Source: Chitinophagaceae bacterium
GTDB taxonomy: Bacteria > Bacteroidota > Bacteroidia > Chitinophagales > Chitinophagaceae
DNA: 64,000 nt
Direction: 5' to 3'
Assembly: GCA_016786745.1 (NCBI GenBank)
Contig: JAEUVS010000156.1
Location: 1-64,000, forward strand
The translations under genes and the position numbers were made by a program. Each line of letters begins with the position of its first letter. Within the stretch, counting starts at the first letter, position 1. Shown here in pieces: positions 14,182 through 24,568 of this stretch. The notes under the pieces are model-generated. The model was not told the origin of the DNA. It saw only the letters and a program-made list of their open reading frames with translations, and did not search any database.

Positions 14182-14619
14182 TCATGCGTTTCGTTCGAGC
14201 GAGCTGCTCGTCAGTTTTTCTATCAGCCGCATCATTTTCTCGCGATCCCCGCGCAGGTTGACAATCTCTTCTTCGAGTAAAGCGATTTTTTCATCTTTTG
14301 TGCTAATGATCTGATCGTATAGCTGCTTCGAAAAATTCAGGAAATCATTTTTCATTTCTGCTTTGCCCTGGACGCTGCAATTGATTTCAGGTTCCGCATC
14401 TGAAAGAAGATCGGTTACTGGTATTTCGAGGAGTTCGGCAAGGCGCTGCAACCTGTCGGTTGTAATTTTTGTTTGATTGGTTTCGATGCGCGAATACGCA
14501 TTCTGCGTGATGCCTAACTTTTCAGCAACATATTCCTGCGAATAGTTCCGGAACTCGCGGAATATTCTGAGTTTGTTTCCAGTCATTGAAGTTAATTTAG
14601 GGCCACAATAAATTTTCAT
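14182..14619 (-). CDS. XRE-family HTH regulator with coiled coil
   Basis: This 145-residue regulator has an HTH_3 domain at about residues 16-70 ('LRIFREFRNYSQEYVAEKLGITQNAYSRIE'), the usual XRE recognition pattern. A C-terminal coiled coil follows at about 95-135 ('ISTKDEKIALLEEEIVNLRGDREKMMRLIEKL'), probably for oligomerisation. An internal ATG at 14586 ('MTGNKLRIF') may be the real start. It is divergent from the double-glycine peptide gene 217 nt away, so it is the best local candidate to control that gene, which is an inference. Confidence 0.88.
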   Translation of the reverse strand: MKIYCGPKLTSMTGNKLRIFREFRNYSQEYVAEKLGITQNAYSRIETNQTKITTDRLQRLAELLEIPVTDLLSDAEPEINCSVQGKAEMKNDFLNFSKQLYDQIISTKDEKIALLEEEIVNLRGDREKMMRLIEKLTSSSLERNA

Positions 14620-14789: not shown

Positions 14790-14797
14790 TACATTTG
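14790..14797 (+). promoter_or_regulatory. Putative -7 element TACATTTG of the peptide gene
   Basis: TACATTTG fits TAnnTTTG. No clear TTTG -33 box is seen at the usual distance, which would fit a regulated promoter. Transcription would start near 14803, just at a small hairpin ACCAC / GTGGT (14802-14817), about 33 nt before the ATG. Confidence 0.5.
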
Positions 14798-14836
14798 TTT
14801 TACCACGATGTTGTGGTTATAAAAAACTGTTAGATT

Positions 14837-14977
14837 ATGAAAGCTTTAGAAAACAATGCAATGGCAAACATTCAAGGCGGCGGTGGACACAAAAAAGGTG
14901 GTGGTATCTCTATCGGTCTCGTGCTTGTTCTCGGTGTTAATTTAGGTTGTGGATGCGGGTTACTGGGCATCCTCTAA
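14837..14977 (+). CDS. Double-glycine leader peptide, bacteriocin/RiPP-like precursor
   Basis: The frame encodes 46 residues. The leader is MKALENNAMANIQGG: with Gly14-Gly15 as -2/-1, the hydrophobic residues Leu4, Met9 and Ile12 fall exactly at -12, -7 and -4, the known recognition pattern of C39 peptidases. The predicted 31-residue core starts GGHKKGGG. It continues with a hydrophobic stretch (ISIGLVLVLGVNL) and ends with a C-G-C motif (Cys38, Cys40) and GLLGIL. A C39-peptidase ABC transporter is encoded 0.8 kb downstream on the same strand. A hairpin terminator follows directly. No lanthionine, radical-SAM or YcaO enzyme is near, so an unmodified or disulphide-bearing peptide is most likely. 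Confidence 0.8.
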   Translation: MKALENNAMANIQGGGGHKKGGGISIGLVLVLGVNLGCGCGLLGIL

Positions 14978-14987
14978 AGTGAATCAG

Positions 14988-15034
14988 AACACAGGATGAT
15001 AGTCCACGAATAATTTATCATCCTGTGTTTTAAA
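14988..15034 (+). terminator. Terminator/attenuator behind the peptide gene
   Basis: A perfect 13-bp stem AACACAGGATGAT / ATCATCCTGTGTT (14988-15000 and 15017-15029) with a 16-nt loop is followed by TTTAAATT. It lies between the precursor gene and the membrane-protein and transporter genes. Partial readthrough would give much precursor and little transporter, as in many bacteriocin operons. Confidence 0.75.
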
Positions 15035-15069
15035 TTATCCTCTTATTTCTCACCTATTGTAATGTTGAA

Positions 15070-15762
15070 ATGGATCAACTTCTTTTTGAAGAATCAAAGT
15101 CTCAACGCAGAATCGAATACATAAATATTTACGACATAAAAGGCGTGTGGATATTCGGCGCTATCTGTGTGGTCTATCTATTCGCCGCTTACTATTTACA
15201 ATCAATCATTTTAACCGAGCAGACTTACTATAATTCGCTTAGCGGACAGGTAGCAGAAGAAGAAATTGCGGAAATGTATAAAATAAAAGAGCGCATGGGT
15301 ATACTCTCCTACCTCCTCGTGCCGGTAACTACGTTCCTTAAAATTTTTCTTCCTGCTGCCTGTTTATATGCCGCTGCTATTTTATTCTCTTATACACTCA
15401 GTTTCAGGAATGCGTTCAAAGTGGCGCTGGTGGCGGAATCCGCATTTGTATTGGCCACACTGCTGCGGTTGCTGCTGCTTGCGTTTTTTGTTGACATCAA
15501 CACGTTCGGTGAAATAAAACAATTTGCGCCGTTGTCGTTGTATAGCATACTCAATGCTTCTTCCATTCCATCATACCTGGTGTATCCATTACAGGTAATA
15601 AATGTTTTTGAAATTATTTATTGTGTTCTCCTTGCAATCGGGTTGTCGGGTTTGCTGAGAAAGAAATTCAAACCGATGCTGGTACTTGCTTTATCGGGTT
15701 ACGGCGCCGGTTTGTTTTGCTGGACAATTCTTATTGCGTTCCTGGGTGTTACATCTTCATAA
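15070..15762 (+). CDS. Polytopic membrane protein of peptide-export locus
   Basis: This 230-residue protein has about five membrane segments: about 27-50, 78-108, 116-140, 177-205 and 207-227. An acidic extracytoplasmic loop near 55-75 contains 'SGQVAEEEIAEMYKIKERMG'. The layout loosely resembles Yip1-type membrane proteins. It sits between the double-glycine precursor and the C39 transporter, ending 7 nt before the latter. Immunity protein or export partner are the two likely roles; neither is proven. Confidence 0.75.
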   Translation: MDQLLFEESKSQRRIEYINIYDIKGVWIFGAICVVYLFAAYYLQSIILTEQTYYNSLSGQVAEEEIAEMYKIKERMGILSYLLVPVTTFLKIFLPAACLYAAAILFSYTLSFRNAFKVALVAESAFVLATLLRLLLLAFFVDINTFGEIKQFAPLSLYSILNASSIPSYLVYPLQVINVFEIIYCVLLAIGLSGLLRKKFKPMLVLALSGYGAGLFCWTILIAFLGVTSS

Positions 15763-15769
15763 ACCCATC

Positions 15770-17920
15770 ATGAAACCAATTGAAAGATTACATAAACAAT
15801 TTGTTCTTCAGCACGATCAATCCGATTGTGGAGTGGCCTGTGTCCGGAATATATTATTATACTACGGCGCGGAAATCTCACTTGAAAAACTGCGGGAATG
15901 GAGCGGAACCACGTCAGAAGGAACAAGTTTGCTGGGATTGCAGGAAGCCGGGACGCAGGCAGGCTTTATAGCTCAAGGCGCGCAGGCAGAAAATATTTAC
16001 AATCTGAAAGAAGTGCAGGATCCGTGTATTCTGCACGTCGTGAAAGATGAAAGTGTGCTTCACTACGTGGTGTATTATCCTGATAATAGCAGCGACAGGT
16101 TCCTGGTCGGCGATCCGGCCACAGGAATATCTCATTTTTCAGCTGACGAACTCAATAGGATATGGATATCAAAAGCAGCATTGCTTCTGCAGCCTACAGA
16201 CAAATTACAAAGATGGCAGCGGCAGCAGGAGAAAAAAAGAAAATGGTTTCTTCAAACAATTAAAGAAGACGCACATCTACTTTACATAGCGGTGGCGCTT
16301 GGACTCGTAGCCGCAGCGTTAAATTTATCAACCGCTATCTTTTCGCAGAAACTAATTGATGACATTTTACCCAACTCCGACAGGCAAAGACTTTTTGCGG
16401 GACTCGGATTACTGGCCATACTTCTCGTAATAAAAAGTTTGTTTACTTATGTACGTCAGCTGATGCTTATTAGGCAAAGCTTTCAATTCAATACAAGGAT
16501 TACGGGAGGATTCTATAAATCTGTTCTATACCTCACGAAGTCATTTTTTGATAACCGTAAAACAGGTGATCTCATCGCGCGACTAAACGATACCATCCGC
16601 ATTCAGCAGGCCATAAGCTATGTATTTGGTGAGATGGCCATCCAGGCGATGATTTTTATCGTTTCGCTTGTATTTATTTTTATCTATTCATGGACGATTG
16701 GATTGTTTTGCCTGCTTATCTTTCCCGTTGTTGCCATGGTCGTGAAATATTTTCACAATGACATAGCCCTTCAGCAGCAGAGAGTGATGGTGGCGCACGC
16801 TCACAATGAAAGTAACTACATAGAAAGCATTAAAGGAATAAGTACAATAAAGGTGATGAACAGGGAGAACATGTTCATCAACGTTGCAAGAAATATTTTT
16901 GGCCTCTACCAGGGATCCATTTTCCGCCTTGGAAAAATTAAGAACAATTTTACCATCGCTCTTGAAATTACTGTTGCTGTACTGATGCTAACAGTAATTA
17001 CCTGGTGCTCTGTGGCCGTGCTCAATAAAAACCTGAATCCCGGTGAAATGATCGCCATCCTTCAAATGGCTACGCTACTTATGCAAACTTCGGTACTCGT
17101 TGCGCTTACAAATGTCCAGATACAGGAAGCGCGCGTTGCTGCCGACCGGATGTATGAATTTACCTCTGCCGAACCGGAATATAACCCGGATAAAATACCT
17201 GCAAGCGCCGTTGTTTCAATTCAGGACATTGATCGTCTTAGAGTGGAACACCTGGGCTTCAGGTTTCCAGGTAAAAAACAGCTATTGAGAGATATCTCAT
17301 TTGAAGTTGGCAGGGGTGAAATAATAGCGCTGACGGGTGAAAGCGGGCAGGGTAAAAGCACGATACTGCAAATACTTCAGAAATTCTACTTACCTGAAAA
17401 TGGAATCATTACAGTTGATGGCCATGATTTCTCGGAAATTGCCCAGGTGTTTTGGAGAAATGTTATCGGTGTGGTACCACAGGATATTACCGCTTTCAGC
17501 GGCTCGCTTGCGGCGAACATCTGTCTCACCACAGATACAATAAACCAGGAACAGGTTGAACAATTTTGCGCCGCTTATGGTTTTGATAAATATTTCAGGC
17601 AGTTTCCCCAGGGCTATGAAACGATGCTCGGTGAAGGCGGCGTATCGTTGTCGGGTGGCCAAAAACAATTACTCGCACTTGCGCGTTGCCTCTATAGTTC
17701 GCCATCATTGTTATTGCTCGACGAGCCAACATCCGCAATGGATGCGAACACTGAACGGTTTGTAATCGACCTACTGCAAAAAGTGAAAAACAGCGCAGCT
17801 ATTCTGATTATCTCACATAAAGATTCTCTCACACAAGTGGCTGATAGAATATATTCTATCCGTAGTGGAATAACTTCAGGTATCGTTAACCGCGTTGAGC
17901 GTGAAACAGCGGTCGTTTAA
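15770..17920 (+). CDS. C39 peptidase-containing ABC transporter (PCAT)
   Basis: This 716-residue exporter removes double-glycine leaders and secretes the peptide. The start at 15770 was chosen because the peptidase domain begins there; the upstream in-frame extension is antibiotic-family-unlike sequence lying within the previous gene. C39 peptidase (1-130): Gln14, Cys20 ('QSDCGVAC'), His98 and Asp115 ('GDPATG') form the catalytic set. Six membrane helices span about 155-440. The ATPase (about 480-716) has Walker A 'GESGQGKST', signature 'LSGGQ', Walker B 'LLLLDEPTSAMD' and H-loop 'ISHKDS'. No HlyD-type adaptor is adjacent. Confidence 0.95.
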   Translation: MKPIERLHKQFVLQHDQSDCGVACVRNILLYYGAEISLEKLREWSGTTSEGTSLLGLQEAGTQAGFIAQGAQAENIYNLKEVQDPCILHVVKDESVLHYVVYYPDNSSDRFLVGDPATGISHFSADELNRIWISKAALLLQPTDKLQRWQRQQEKKRKWFLQTIKEDAHLLYIAVALGLVAAALNLSTAIFSQKLIDDILPNSDRQRLFAGLGLLAILLVIKSLFTYVRQLMLIRQSFQFNTRITGGFYKSVLYLTKSFFDNRKTGDLIARLNDTIRIQQAISYVFGEMAIQAMIFIVSLVFIFIYSWTIGLFCLLIFPVVAMVVKYFHNDIALQQQRVMVAHAHNESNYIESIKGISTIKVMNRENMFINVARNIFGLYQGSIFRLGKIKNNFTIALEITVAVLMLTVITWCSVAVLNKNLNPGEMIAILQMATLLMQTSVLVALTNVQIQEARVAADRMYEFTSAEPEYNPDKIPASAVVSIQDIDRLRVEHLGFRFPGKKQLLRDISFEVGRGEIIALTGESGQGKSTILQILQKFYLPENGIITVDGHDFSEIAQVFWRNVIGVVPQDITAFSGSLAANICLTTDTINQEQVEQFCAAYGFDKYFRQFPQGYETMLGEGGVSLSGGQKQLLALARCLYSSPSLLLLDEPTSAMDANTERFVIDLLQKVKNSAAILIISHKDSLTQVADRIYSIRSGITSGIVNRVERETAVV

Positions 17921-18002: not shown

Positions 18003-18599
18003 ATGTCGCCAGTAAAGCATAGCATAAGGGAGAAAGGAGATATCAGGGCTCGGATTCTTGCTACTGCGTGGCAGATGGTGAAAGAAGAAGGCTGGCCGTC
18101 GCTTTCGATTAGAAGAATTGCCGAAGCAGTTGATTACAGTGTGCCCGTTATCTATGACCACTTTGAAAACAAAGAAGCTATTGTCTTAGAGTTCGCGCGA
18201 CAGGGATTTCAGTTGCTGTCGAAGAACATTCAGAAAGCCATGGAGAAAGCTACCGAGCCCGCCGAACAGATAAGAGCGATTGCCGACGCCTATTGGAAAT
18301 TTGCCTCGAAACACAAAGAATATTACCAGCTTATGTTCAGTATGGGTATGCCGGGATGTGAACTTGAAAAGTGTTTTCCTGAACGCGCTGATTTCAGAGT
18401 CATGGTGATGAAACCCATCACGGCGCTGATCGAAAAAGGTGAGCATCCGAACGATAACCCGTTCCTGAAATATTTTACCTTTTGGTCTACTCTGCATGGA
18501 CTAATCTCGATCAGAAGCCTCAATGGGGTTGTCTCTGAAGAAGTAAATAAGATGGTAATGGACGATGCTGTCAACGGTTTTATAAAAAACCTGGGTTAG
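18003..18599 (+). CDS. TetR/AcrR-family regulator of the RND pump
   Basis: This 198-residue repressor has an N-terminal HTH (about 12-58): 'IRARILATAWQMVKEEGWPSLSIRRIAEAVDYSVPVIYDHFENKEAI'. A C-terminal ligand domain of the TetR_C_13-like kind (about 85-190) follows. It is the first gene before the RND adaptor, pump and outer-membrane genes. A perfect palindromic operator lies at its own promoter, so it likely represses itself and the pump until a ligand binds. The ligand is unknown. Confidence 0.9.
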   Translation: MSPVKHSIREKGDIRARILATAWQMVKEEGWPSLSIRRIAEAVDYSVPVIYDHFENKEAIVLEFARQGFQLLSKNIQKAMEKATEPAEQIRAIADAYWKFASKHKEYYQLMFSMGMPGCELEKCFPERADFRVMVMKPITALIEKGEHPNDNPFLKYFTFWSTLHGLISIRSLNGVVSEEVNKMVMDDAVNGFIKNLG

Positions 18600-18612
18600 C
18601 CCCCACTCCAAG

Positions 18613-18686
18613 GGATATGCAACGACATATCCACCCAACCGATTGAATACTGCCCTATAAAGAATGGCTGCACCGCCGTTGCAGCC
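18613..18686 (+). other. Two hairpins between tetR and the adaptor gene
   Basis: GGATATG / CATATCC (18613-18632, 7 bp, 6-nt loop) and GGCTGCA / TGCAGCC (18666-18686, 7 bp, 7-nt loop) lie in the 131-bp gap. Neither has a T-tract. They may adjust readthrough or mRNA stability between repressor and pump genes. Confidence 0.45.
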
Positions 18687-18730
18687 AAACAGATGATCCA
18701 TGTCCTGACATTTTCTTTTAAAAACACAAA

Positions 18731-19933
18731 ATGCTTATGTCATTCTTAGCAATTAAAAATCAGGTTTCTCATCAACTATATAATTTGAGAATACTGTTCG
18801 TAGCAATTGTCAGCGCTACAGTCCTGTATAGCTGCTCCGAGTCGTCCGGTAATGAGCCATCGTACCAGCCACAAATGCAATCGCTGCCTGTGGTGGCCAT
18901 CAATGCGCTTCCTGCCACAACGTACCAGGAGTTTACCGCTTCAATCGAAGGAACGAAGGATATAGAAATACGTCCGCAGGTAAACGGGTACATCGAAAAA
19001 ATATTTGTGGATGAAGGCGCCCATGTAAAGAAAGGGCAGAATTTATTCCAGATAAACGATCGTCCTTATCTCGAAGCATACAACAACGCAAAGGCAACGT
19101 TAACCGCTGCGAAAGCAAACCTGTCTACAGCTGAAATAAATGTTTCGAAACTTAAACCGCTTGTTGAAAGCAATATCATTTCTGATGTTCAATACAAAAC
19201 AGCGCAGTCGGCGTATGATGCGGCAAAGGCAAATGTGGCGCAGGCTGAAGCGATGGTGGAAAACGCGCACATCAATCTCGGCTACGCCCTGATCAAAGCG
19301 CCTGCTGATGGATATATCGGAAGAATTGTTTTTAAAACAGGAAGCCTCGTCGGAACATCAACAGCCGAACCGCTGACCGTTCTTTCCGACATCAACAGGG
19401 TGTATGCATACTTTTCGTTTAGTGAAAATGATTTCATCCGGTTCAAGGATCAGTTTCCCGGAAAATCTGTCGAAGAAAAAATAAAGCAACTTCCTGAAGT
19501 GGAACTGATGCTTTCTGATAACAGTATCTATCCGAAAAAGGGTAAAGTGGAAATGGTGGCAGGTCAATTCGATAATACTACAGGATCAATCAGCCTCAGG
19601 GCAATATTTCCAAACGCAGATGGATTGATACGTTCAGGAAATACTGGTAAGATCCGCATTCCCCGTTCGAGCACAAAAGATTTGATCGTGCCGCAGGAAG
19701 CGACATTTGAACTCCAGGATAAGGTGTTTGTATTTACTCTTGCCGACAGCAACAAAGTGAGCAGCACTCCTATTCATGTATCAGGAACAAGTGGCAACTA
19801 CTACCTGGTTGATAAAGGCATCGCGGAAGGACAAAAAATTGTGTACTCTGGTCTCGACCGCTTACAGGACGGAGCAATCATTCAACCTCAACCAATCACT
19901 ATGGACAGCCTTCTTAAAGTTAATCCACTTTAA
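18731..19933 (+). CDS. RND efflux periplasmic adaptor (MFP lipoprotein)
   Basis: This 400-residue adaptor of the AcrA/MexA type has a lipoprotein signal with lipobox 'LYSC' at about residue 34. The biotinyl-lipoyl half-motifs are 'IEIRPQVNGYIEKIFVDEGAHVKKGQNLFQI' (about 78-108) and 'ALIKAPADGYIGRIVFKTGSLVG'. Between them lies an alpha-helical hairpin (about 115-180) and after them beta-barrel and membrane-proximal domains. It bridges the inner-membrane pump encoded next with the outer-membrane channel. It lies 51 nt before the pump gene. Confidence 0.95.
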   Translation: MLMSFLAIKNQVSHQLYNLRILFVAIVSATVLYSCSESSGNEPSYQPQMQSLPVVAINALPATTYQEFTASIEGTKDIEIRPQVNGYIEKIFVDEGAHVKKGQNLFQINDRPYLEAYNNAKATLTAAKANLSTAEINVSKLKPLVESNIISDVQYKTAQSAYDAAKANVAQAEAMVENAHINLGYALIKAPADGYIGRIVFKTGSLVGTSTAEPLTVLSDINRVYAYFSFSENDFIRFKDQFPGKSVEEKIKQLPEVELMLSDNSIYPKKGKVEMVAGQFDNTTGSISLRAIFPNADGLIRSGNTGKIRIPRSSTKDLIVPQEATFELQDKVFVFTLADSNKVSSTPIHVSGTSGNYYLVDKGIAEGQKIVYSGLDRLQDGAIIQPQPITMDSLLKVNPL

Positions 19934-19984
19934 AGGCAGGAATGGCAACTCATCAGCCGATCATCGTATCAATAATCTATTTCT

Positions 19985-22900
19985 ATGTTTAAAAGATTTA
20001 TTGAACGGCCGGTCCTATCTACGGTCGTTTCTATCATACTCACTTTACTGGGATTGTTATCGCTGTTCACGCTACCGATAACATTATTTCCGGATATCGC
20101 GCCGCCGACTGTGCAGGTTACTGCTACCTATCCCGGTGCAAATGCCGAGGTAGTTGCAAGAGCCGTTGCGACACCACTCGAAGAAGCCATCAACGGAGTG
20201 GAAGACATGACATACATGACTTCCACTTCGAGCAACGATGGCACAATGACGATCAACGTTTATTTCAAAGTGGGCACGAACCCCGATTTGGCAGCTGTGA
20301 ATGTGCAGAGCCGCGTATCACGCGCGGTAAGCCAGGTACCGCAGGAAGTTGTGCTCGCGGGAATCTCAACGCAGAAACAACAGAACAGTATGATCATGGT
20401 GCCGCTTATTTACAGCGACAGCGCCGCATACGACGAAACTTTTCTGCAGAATTATGTCAAAATAAATATCGTTCCGGAACTGCAGCGTATTCCGGGTGTA
20501 GGTCAGGCAATGGTGTTTGGAGCTAAAGATTACTCAATGAGAATCTGGTTAAAACCAGACAGGCTCACAGCAAATAACCTATCTACTCAAAACGTGCTGG
20601 ATGCCATACATGAACAGAATGTGGAAGCAGCGCCTGGACGGTTCGGGCAAAGCAGCACCGCCGCGTTTGAATACATTTTGAAATACAAGGGTAAACTGTC
20701 GAAGAACCAGGATTACGAAAACATCATTTTAAAATCGGCTTCCGATGGATCGGTTGTACGATTGAAAGATGTTGCCAGGGTTGAGTTTGGCGCGTTCGCC
20801 TACAGCGCAAATACCACTGTAAGCGGTAGGCCCGGAATCGGTATTGCAATATTTCAGACAGCAGGTTCGAATGCAAATGATATCCTTACAGCGGCCGACG
20901 CGGCGTTGCAACGTGCTTCTAAAAATTTTCCAAAGGGTGTCGAATATTTCAATATGTACAGCGCGAAAGAATTTCTCGATGAATCAATCGCGCAGGTACT
21001 TGAAACACTTGTCATAGCTTTTATACTCGTGTTCATTGTCGTGTTCATCTTTTTGCAGGACTTCCGTTCAACGCTGATTCCGGCAATCGCGGTGCCTGTT
21101 GCCATAGTGGGTACATTCTTCTTCATGCAATTGTTTGGATTTACCATCAACCTGCTTACGTTGTTCGCGCTCGTGCTGGCGATTGGTATCGTAGTGGACG
21201 ATGCTATAGTTGTAGTGGAAGCGGTGCACTCGAAGATGGAGCGAACGAAACTCGCTGCCCGCGAGGCGACGATACAATCAATGAATGAAATATCCGGTGT
21301 AATTATTTCAATCACACTGGTGATGGCGGCGGTGTTTGTGCCGGTAGGATTTATGCAGGGGCCCGCAGGCGTGTTCTATAAGCAATTCGCGTTCACACTG
21401 GTTACTGCGATTCTCATTTCAGCGATAAACGCTTTAACGCTAAGCCCCGCCTTGTGTGCGCTATTCTTAAAAAATGAACATGCAGGTAAAGGTGAAAAGA
21501 GGCGCAGCTTCGGGCAAAGGTTTTTCGCAGGATTCAACGCAGGGTTCAAAGCAACAACCGATAAATACACAAGAGGAATTAATTATCTCATACATCATAA
21601 ATGGATTTCTGTTACGGCGCTCTTGCTGATAACATTGGTCACTGTTTGGCTGGTAAGAAAATCACCGACAGGATTTATTCCTACTGAGGACCAGGGATTC
21701 ATTGTGTACTCTGTGAATCTTCCGCCGGGTGCGTCGTTAGACAGAACACAGAAAGTGATGAACAAGGTCGACAGCCTGCTGAGCCAGGTGCCTGCTATCG
21801 ACAGGAAAGGAGCCGTAACAGGATTGAATTTCGTGGCGAATGCGAACAGTTCGAACTACGCAGTAGGATTTATCAGGATGAAGGCGCCGGGAGAAAGAGG
21901 CCCGGTTGATAATGTTGAAGGAGTGATGGGAATTATCAACCAGAAACTGAGCGTAATCAAGGAAGCAAGCATTTTTCTTTTCCAGTTCCCGACAGTGCAG
22001 GGATTTGGTAACACTAGCGGGTTTGAATTCATTTTGCAGGACAGAACCGGCGGATCGCTCGAAAAACTTTCAGGTACAGCCTATGGGTTGATCGGGCAGT
22101 TGATGCAGCAAAAAGAAATTGCATATGCGTTTACAACGTTCAATACTTCTAACCCTCAATACATGCTCGACATTAATGAGGAGAAAGCAAAACAGTTAGG
22201 TGTTTCTATAAACGATCTTCTTCAGACGTTGCAGGTGTATTATGGCAGCAGCTTCGCGTCGGACTTTAACCGTTTCGGAAAATTTTATCGCGTGATTGTG
22301 CAGGCTGATGTGAATTACAGAACGGACGCAAGTTCGCTCAACAACATTCATGTAAAAAACGATGCAGGAGAGATGGTTCCGGTTAACGGTCTTGTACAAT
22401 TGCGCAGGGTGTATGGTCCGGAAACGGTAACAAGGAACAACCTGTTCAACGCAGTTACCATTAACGGAGTAACAAAACCTGGTTACAGTACAGGTGATGC
22501 GATCAACGCGATTAAAAAAGTTGCGGAACAAACACTGCCAAGAGGGTATTCTTACGAATGGACGGGAATGTCGAGGGAAGAAATAGGCGCTGGTTCACAA
22601 CAAACACTGATCTTCCTGCTCAGTATTATTTTCGTGTACTTTTTACTTGCAGCACAATATGAAGGATATGTTCTTCCTCTTGCTGTAATTCTATCAGTAC
22701 CAACCGGCATACTTGGAGTATTCGCTTTCATTAACTTTTCGGGTATAGACAATAATATATACGTACAGGTTGGACTTATCATGCTCGTAGGCCTGCTCGC
22801 AAAGAACGCAATATTGATCGTTCAGTATGCGGTCGCGCGACGGAGGGCGGGTATGGATCTCATCAATGCGGCGTTGGAGGCATCGAGGCTCAGGTTACGC

Positions 22901-23134
22901 CCGATCCTCATGACTTCCTTCGCCTTCATTGTGGGGCTGCTACCTCTCACATGGGTTGAAGGCGGATCAGCGCTTGGTAACCGTTCTATCGGCACAAGTG
23001 CGATTGGTGGAATGCTCACCGGTGTAGTGCTCGGAATATTCATCATACCGGTGTTGTTTGTGATATTCCAGTACCTGCAGGAAAAAGTTTCAGGATCGCC
23101 GATACACCGGTCCGCAGAACATCTTGATGAATAA
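19985..23134 (+). CDS. RND multidrug efflux pump (HAE1 family)
   Basis: This 1049-residue inner-membrane proton/drug antiporter of the AcrB/MexB type begins with 'MFKRFIERPVLSTVVSIILTLLGL'. The proton-relay pair is seen in TM4 ('GIVVDDAIVVVEAVH', near 400-410), and 'GLLAKNAILIVQYA' marks TM10. Two large periplasmic loops with the porter and docking domains separate TM1-2 and TM7-8. The length matches AcrB (1049 residues). It forms a tripartite complex with the flanking adaptor and outer-membrane genes. The drug spectrum is unknown. Confidence 0.97.
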   Translation: MFKRFIERPVLSTVVSIILTLLGLLSLFTLPITLFPDIAPPTVQVTATYPGANAEVVARAVATPLEEAINGVEDMTYMTSTSSNDGTMTINVYFKVGTNPDLAAVNVQSRVSRAVSQVPQEVVLAGISTQKQQNSMIMVPLIYSDSAAYDETFLQNYVKINIVPELQRIPGVGQAMVFGAKDYSMRIWLKPDRLTANNLSTQNVLDAIHEQNVEAAPGRFGQSSTAAFEYILKYKGKLSKNQDYENIILKSASDGSVVRLKDVARVEFGAFAYSANTTVSGRPGIGIAIFQTAGSNANDILTAADAALQRASKNFPKGVEYFNMYSAKEFLDESIAQVLETLVIAFILVFIVVFIFLQDFRSTLIPAIAVPVAIVGTFFFMQLFGFTINLLTLFALVLAIGIVVDDAIVVVEAVHSKMERTKLAAREATIQSMNEISGVIISITLVMAAVFVPVGFMQGPAGVFYKQFAFTLVTAILISAINALTLSPALCALFLKNEHAGKGEKRRSFGQRFFAGFNAGFKATTDKYTRGINYLIHHKWISVTALLLITLVTVWLVRKSPTGFIPTEDQGFIVYSVNLPPGASLDRTQKVMNKVDSLLSQVPAIDRKGAVTGLNFVANANSSNYAVGFIRMKAPGERGPVDNVEGVMGIINQKLSVIKEASIFLFQFPTVQGFGNTSGFEFILQDRTGGSLEKLSGTAYGLIGQLMQQKEIAYAFTTFNTSNPQYMLDINEEKAKQLGVSINDLLQTLQVYYGSSFASDFNRFGKFYRVIVQADVNYRTDASSLNNIHVKNDAGEMVPVNGLVQLRRVYGPETVTRNNLFNAVTINGVTKPGYSTGDAINAIKKVAEQTLPRGYSYEWTGMSREEIGAGSQQTLIFLLSIIFVYFLLAAQYEGYVLPLAVILSVPTGILGVFAFINFSGIDNNIYVQVGLIMLVGLLAKNAILIVQYAVARRRAGMDLINAALEASRLRLRPILMTSFAFIVGLLPLTWVEGGSALGNRSIGTSAIGGMLTGVVLGIFIIPVLFVIFQYLQEKVSGSPIHRSAEHLDE

Positions 23135-23152
23135 AGCGTAAAAAAAATAATT

Positions 23153-24568
23153 ATGTTCAGACTCATATTAATAGTTATAGCCCTGGCGACGATGATGATT
23201 TTTACATCATCCTGCCGCGTGGGAAAACCATACGAAAGGCCCGAAGTACCGGCGCCTGAAAAGTTCAGAGGCGAAGTCACAGCAGACACGCTAAGCGTTG
23301 CGGATAAACAATGGAAAGAATTGTTTTCGGATACGAAGGTTAGTTCGCTGATCGATTCAGGAATTAAAAACAATTATGACCTGCTTATTGCAGTTAACAG
23401 GCTTGACATTGCGCGCAAAAGGATGAGACAGGCGAAACTGCTTCAGCTGCCGGAGTTGAATTTCCAGGTATCGGGTCAGTATAGCCGTCCATCGGATAAC
23501 AGTTTAAACGGTATCAGTATAAAAAGCTTTCTTAAGTCTACGCACGTAGAAAATTACCAGGCAATAGCATCGCTTTCATGGGAGGCGGATATATGGGGCA
23601 AAATAAGGAGTCAGAAAGAAGCAACGCTCGCTGAGTACATGCAGAGTTATGAAGCGGTGAAAGCAGTGCAGACGCAGGTTGTAGCGGATATAGCGCATGG
23701 ATATTTTAACCTGCTGATGCTCGACAGGCAACTGGAGATTTCAAAAAATAACCTGCAGTTAAGTGACAGCTTTCTCCTGGCGACGAAAAAAATGAAAGAT
23801 GCAGGGATTGTGAATCTTCTTGCTGTACAACAGGCTGAATCGCAGAAGCAGTCTACTTCAATACTGATACCGCAATTGCAGGAGAATATCGGTTTGCAGG
23901 AGAATGCTCTCCAGATTCTTACAGGTGAATTGCCTGACAGCGTGGAAAGACTGAGTGCGTTGGACAAAATTCTGGCTGTTGAAAATATTTCAGCTGGTGT
24001 ACCGGCATCATTGTTAAGCAGGCGACCTGATGTGCGCGCCGCCGAATTGGCCGTGGTAGCTGCTAATGCGCGTGTTGGTGTCGCAAAGGGAAATATGTAT
24101 CCTGCGTTGAACATTACGGCAGGTGCCGGATTGGAGTCGTTCAAATCGAGCAACTGGTTTAATATTCCCGGATCATTGTTTGGAATTGCTGCGGGTACTA
24201 TTACGCAGCCGGTTTTCAGAAGAAGGCAGTTAAAGACAGATTATGAAGTGGCCAAGCTCGAAAGAGAGCAGGCTGTTCTTCAGTTCAGGCAGCAGGTGTT
24301 GGTGGCCGTTGGTGAGGTATCGGATGCGCTTGTGCAGATTGAGAAGTTAAAGGAGCAGGAGACGATTGCGCGTGCACAGGTTGATACGTTGAAGCTTGCG
24401 GTGATTAATTCGCGCCGTTTGTTTAGTAGCGATCTCGCGAATTATTTAGAAGTGCTTACCGCGCAGGGGAATGCGTTGCAGGCGGAACTCGCCCTCGCGA
24501 CTATTCACAAACGACAGCTAGATGCGATGATTGAGTTGTACAGGGCCCTGGGAGGTGGATGGAAATAA
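23153..24568 (+). CDS. Outer-membrane efflux channel (TolC/NodT type)
   Basis: This 471-residue channel protein has a lipoprotein signal with lipobox-like 'FTSSC' at about residue 22. Two OEP repeats follow, with long helices such as 'ARKRMRQAKLLQLPELNFQVSG' and 'LLSRRPDVRAAELAVVAANARVGVAKGNMYPALNITAGAG', the NodT-family signature. It is the last gene of the RND operon, 18 nt after the pump gene, and completes the export duct. Confidence 0.95.
   Translation: MFRLILIVIALATMMIFTSSCRVGKPYERPEVPAPEKFRGEVTADTLSVADKQWKELFSDTKVSSLIDSGIKNNYDLLIAVNRLDIARKRMRQAKLLQLPELNFQVSGQYSRPSDNSLNGISIKSFLKSTHVENYQAIASLSWEADIWGKIRSQKEATLAEYMQSYEAVKAVQTQVVADIAHGYFNLLMLDRQLEISKNNLQLSDSFLLATKKMKDAGIVNLLAVQQAESQKQSTSILIPQLQENIGLQENALQILTGELPDSVERLSALDKILAVENISAGVPASLLSRRPDVRAAELAVVAANARVGVAKGNMYPALNITAGAGLESFKSSNWFNIPGSLFGIAAGTITQPVFRRRQLKTDYEVAKLEREQAVLQFRQQVLVAVGEVSDALVQIEKLKEQETIARAQVDTLKLAVINSRRLFSSDLANYLEVLTAQGNALQAELALATIHKRQLDAMIELYRALGGGWK

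Follow-up and report, generated by a model that had tools for sequence, protein, structure and literature searches.

The window, a stretch of 64,000 nucleotides from a Chitinophagaceae bacterium (contig JAEUVS010000156.1 of assembly GCA_016786745.1), contained a locus that is probably a compact and mobile bacteriocin cassette of the bacteroidetocin type (class IIf-like), composed of an XRE regulator, a peptide precursor, a five-helix membrane protein and a C39 ABC exporter. Judged from the sequence, all parts of the cassette are intact, the leader of the peptide belongs to the leader family of related loci, and the gene order, the regulator and a hairpin recur in one near relative. By analogy with the published loci, the most likely function of the peptide is antibacterial, in the manner of bacteroidetocins. 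It is a new peptide at a locus of a type already known from related bacteria. The features of the locus were as follows.

14182–14586, minus strand: XRE-family HTH regulator whose C-terminus is coiled-coil, oriented divergently to the peptide gene (homologue in the same position in the nearest relative, L172)
14790–14797, plus strand: putative promoter, TACATTTG (script match to the Bacteroidota −7 consensus TAnnTTTG)
14803–14816, no strand assigned: candidate XRE operator, imperfect palindrome CCACGATGTTGTGG (CACGATnTTGTGG before the start codon also in L172)
14837–14881, plus strand: double-glycine leader of 15 residues, MKALENNAMANIQGG (profile score of 33.1 bits)
14882–14977, plus strand: core of 31 residues, GGHKKGGGISIGLVLVLGVNLGCGCGLLGIL, and stop codon (translation; GCGCG in common with L172)
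14986–15031, plus strand: 17-bp hairpin between the peptide and membrane-protein genes (−22.6 kcal/mol, z −5.1)
15070–15762, plus strand: five-helix membrane protein P0002, 230 aa (family alignments, AlphaFold model, co-occurrence with C39 ABC genes)
15770–17920, plus strand: C39 peptidase/ABC exporter, 716 aa (PF03412, PF00664, PF00005, TIGR01193; catalytic and ATPase motifs intact)

The peptide gene was a 46-codon open reading frame on the plus strand (14837–14977), which was translated as MKALENNAMANIQGG followed by GGHKKGGGISIGLVLVLGVNLGCGCGLLGIL. An in-frame stop codon was present in the sequence at 14831–14833; hence, the start was fixed at the ATG at 14837. Leu at −12, Met at −7 and Ile at −4 preceded the Gly-Gly pair of the leader, in agreement with the C39 recognition rule by which the earlier note had singled out this gene. 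As a test of chance, the 99 distinct 15-residue leaders from other loci were turned into a position profile, to which neither the window nor L172 contributed. The window leader scored 33.1 bits on this profile, and the corresponding values were 36.5 bits for the mean of the set and 26.3 bits for L172. Second-order random sequence, 20 Mb in total, contained no open reading frame that reached 33.1 bits, which excluded chance as the origin of the leader. Moreover, the peptide reading frame was the sole one of the window, on both strands, within 8 bits of this value.

The core had a calculated mass of 2875.5 Da, a pI of 8.9 and a GRAVY value of 1.23. Its length of 31 residues was short for the group (the related peptides had a median of 48 and a 5th percentile of 33), and it had no significant sequence similarity to the other cores. 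The peptide contained two cysteines in total, Cys38 and Cys40, which were unusually close and spaced by Gly39, thereby forming the C-G-C motif already described in the earlier note. The surrounding GCGCG motif was shared, among the mature peptides compared, only with L172.

The next two genes on the strand had previously been read as a membrane protein and a C39 ABC exporter, and both assignments held at 15070–15762 and 15770–17920. The exporter matched PF03412 (6.6e-30), ABC_membrane, ABC_tran and TIGR01193. The C39 residues Cys20, His98 and Asp115 were intact as claimed, and Gln14 was also present. The ATPase motifs were complete (Walker A GESGQGKS, signature LSGGQ and Walker B LLLLDE). In alignments that covered most of the window transporter, its identity to almost every transporter of the related loci was 36–47%, and to the majority of them 40–47%.

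No Pfam family was matched by P0002, and a weak match to Pfam Yip1 was found in five of its relatives. The AlphaFold model of P0002 had a pLDDT of 90.7 and five hydrophobic helical segments, as counted from the DSSP string, and a fold search with this model against the PDB gave no significant match. Bacteroidota genomes were searched with the sequence of the membrane protein itself, which yielded 136 related loci, including some duplicates and five loci that were chosen through the transporter. A C39 ABC gene lay within 5 kb of the membrane-protein relative in 110 of the 136 loci, and a thioredoxin-like oxidoreductase was encoded in 104 of these 110. Many of the related loci carried one to several small double-glycine peptides, with 15-residue leaders near MKxLELNQMExLEGG. 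Exactly two cysteines were present in 82 of 100 mature peptides from the oxidoreductase-bearing loci. The membrane-protein family can be used as a search handle for the whole group, and it picks up peptide genes that might be overlooked by gene callers.

Several of these loci had features of their own. Nine double-glycine peptides with at least two leader types, followed by one membrane protein, an oxidoreductase and a C39 exporter, were found in each of two Aquimarina loci (L111 and L112, 981–4856). An identical peptide occurred in a Paludibacter MAG contig (L152) and in Flavobacterium frigoris (L153), reflecting either MAG contamination or recent transfer. Loci L091, L094 and L097 were high in GC; a 42-residue core with four cysteines (e.g., IGIPCDGKSPRYLLAWFICTSTGPFNPMGLAGNGLCYALCGS) was present in L094 and L097, and its size and number of cysteines are those of bacteroidetocins A and B. 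In four further loci (L085, L169, L177 and L179), a relative of the membrane protein lay downstream of a divergent XRE gene but had no C39 exporter within 5–6 kb, possibly representing another use of the membrane-protein family.

The potential of Bacteroidota for class II bacteriocins has already been reported in computational surveys (PMC12648078). Bacteroidetocins are class IIf bacteriocins, and their regions, according to the report by Coyne et al. (2019; PMC6671954), encode a C39 ABC transporter, a five-TM protein, a double-glycine peptide whose leader has 15–16 residues and, in most cases, a thiol oxidoreductase. The target of these peptides is BamA (PMC8546649). The window locus shares with them the 15-residue double-glycine leader, at least two cysteines, the C39 ABC transporter, the Bacteroidota host and the lack of an obvious immunity gene. 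The membrane protein of the window probably corresponds to the five-TM protein: its family has like neighbours, and its model, with five helices, agrees with the published description. Differences were also apparent. The mature bacteroidetocins are generally 35–50 aa in length (PMC6671954), and the known set spans 42–53 residues (PMC8546649), whereas the window core of 31 residues lies outside the range of about 35–53. The cysteine pair of the window takes the form C-G-C, and the locus is without the thiol oxidoreductase gene, which is present in "most" regions only according to PMC6671954. The divergent XRE gene and the 3′ hairpin of the window had no mention in the available text of the same report. 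No Prevotella or Bacteroides locus was among those returned by the scan for membrane-protein relatives. Because the published proteins were compared by description, membership among the bacteroidetocins, suggested by the genes present, the host phylum and the length of the leader, is likely only, and the locus is better called bacteroidetocin-like than a bacteroidetocin. One more Bacteroidota genome is thus added to those with bacteroidetocin-like loci, and the core that it encodes is unusually short. Compared with the Gram-positive class IIa and IIc bacteriocins, the double-glycine leader, the C39 exporter and the hydrophobic, Gly-rich core are alike, whereas the window locus has no YGNGV motif and no immunity gene of that type. 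The match of the peptide to Bacteriocin_IIc (PF10439) was below the cutoff of 27.1 bits (12.3 bits, E 0.17).

The nearest relative was locus L172 (MKTZ01000014.1) from the MAG Sphingobacteriales bacterium 50-39, with identities of 57% for the transporter and 39% for the membrane protein. The order of XRE gene, peptide, membrane protein and C39 ABC gene was the same in both, and both were without a thiol oxidoreductase. The L172 peptide began at an ATG giving a 15-residue leader (MKMLERSSLEQIQGG) and contained GCGCG within its core; a hairpin was located at the same place 3′ of the peptide gene (z −5.0), and CACGATnTTGTGG stood directly before the start codon in both loci. The L172 core differed in having 54 residues and six cysteines, and its flanks were also different, with SusC/SusD-like genes upstream and a quinone-oxidoreductase-like gene downstream. 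Homology of the two cores beyond GCGCG was rejected, since 17% of shuffles scored as well and the cores of L178 and L062 scored higher. The conservation in relatives that the earlier note had called for was therefore found in L172 for the leader and the start, and the similarity of the core outside GCGCG was not significant.

Three regulatory elements were absent from the earlier note: the divergent XRE gene, the hairpin 3′ of the peptide gene and the putative operator. The start of the XRE gene was placed at the Met at 14586 by comparison with L172, and its reading frame opens at 14619. The homologue in L172 was also divergent (phmmer E 1.4e-36), and a divergent XRE gene was located upstream of the membrane-protein gene in 30 of the 136 related loci. 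This regulator, recurring in part of the group, suggests how such peptides get switched on. The −7 element of Bacteroidota promoters has the consensus TAnnTTTG, and no site like TACATTTG was found in L172. The palindrome CCACGATGTTGTGG is a candidate operator of the XRE protein, a proposal derived from two loci. The full 14-mer had one exact copy in the genome; matches at one or two mismatches looked like background, and a wider regulon was rejected. The hairpin at 14986–15031 likely forms the 3′ end or an attenuator of the peptide mRNA.

A working scheme for the cassette can be proposed as follows. The XRE protein would bind the palindrome at the promoter and hold the operon down until induction, and the hairpin 3′ of the peptide gene would keep the peptide transcript above the downstream genes in abundance. 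The C39 domain would cut after Gly15, and the ABC part, helped by the membrane protein, would export the 31-residue hydrophobic and slightly basic core. The exported peptide may then act on the envelope of competing Bacteroidota. No immunity gene would be expected for the window locus. Against the bacteriocin reading stand the short core, the absence of significant core similarity and the missing oxidoreductase, in comparison with the 104 of 110 related loci that have one.

The earlier note had left the choice between a Gram-negative class II-type bacteriocin and a signalling peptide. The bacteriocin was best supported, with the bacteroidetocin loci as its relatives, and the signal was retained as a rival. 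It is unlikely that the locus encodes such a signal, which would leave through the C39 transporter, be perceived by the producing population and elicit a response via the XRE protein. Pheromones do occur among C39-processed double-glycine peptides, and the divergent regulator, which is kept in L172 and upstream in part of the related loci, would also fit a signalling peptide. Nevertheless, the ORF list held no receptor or kinase gene beside the peptide gene, XRE genes are equally often mere repressors of toxin operons, and the related loci often encode several different Cys-paired, Gly-rich cores, as expected for bacteriocins. Similarly improbable, to a greater degree, is a RiPP proper modified by an enzyme encoded elsewhere in the genome. 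The core is Gly-rich and contains cysteines, and C39 exporters also serve modified peptides, but the leader belongs to the unmodified, bacteroidetocin-like kind and a modifying enzyme was absent from L172 and from the ORF list of the cassette, the latter as the earlier note had stated. It is very hard to credit that the reading frame is dead or arose by chance, next to a transporter that exports other peptides. The frame has 46 codons only and its core is without significant likeness to other cores, but its leader score was unreached in the random sequence, and L172 shares its start, its position, the length of its leader and the hairpin that comes after it.

The membrane protein had been regarded previously as a possible immunity protein, and a dedicated role of this kind for the peptide now appears rather improbable. 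Its gene lies directly 3′ of the peptide gene, and P0002 weakly resembles the YknW family (E 1e-4, well short of the cutoff), which is part of a peptide-toxin protection system in Bacillus. Against this, one membrane-protein gene serves up to nine peptides in L111 and L112, which fits a role in production better. Furthermore, the five-TM protein of the bacteroidetocins is required for toxin activity and gives no protection in trans, and the producers stay sensitive, as stated in PMC6671954. By this analogy, the membrane protein is likely needed for export or maturation.

It is also doubtful that the window represents a separate sub-lineage without a dedicated thiol oxidoreductase, in which the GCGCG motif would itself provide redox or metal-binding chemistry and an XRE-controlled, self-contained cassette would move between Bacteroidota. 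A tie between oxidoreductase loss and CxC (window, L172 and L070) was considered and rejected; after removal of the two defining loci, the ratios were 1/4 and 1/78 (Fisher p 0.096), and the link was broken by L243 and L101. L070 (6819–8353), a locus without a thiol oxidoreductase, contained five tandem, near-identical double-glycine peptides with six cysteines and the ending CxGCxC.

The distribution of the bacteriocin-like cassette was compared with that of its surroundings. The best other transporters of the host's own family were only about 39–42% identical, and the cassette was absent from three sibling species of the host genus. In one sibling (G002), the neighbouring TetR gene and the first two efflux genes were kept at 58–71% without the cassette, and hence the TetR/RND efflux operon (18003–24568) was rejected as a part of the system. 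Considering these observations together with the different flanks in L172, the cassette looks to have been acquired as a unit. An exact empty site could not be defined, and plasmid searches gave remote matches only. Contig C42 of the host genome carried another C39-type ABC gene, truncated where the contig ends (L018, 6800–8949); it was preceded by two open reading frames with longer double-glycine leaders (MEKQLKVDPKGHFMLSYDEMRNITGG... and METLHTTGKQSRELSRDEAMMVVGG...).
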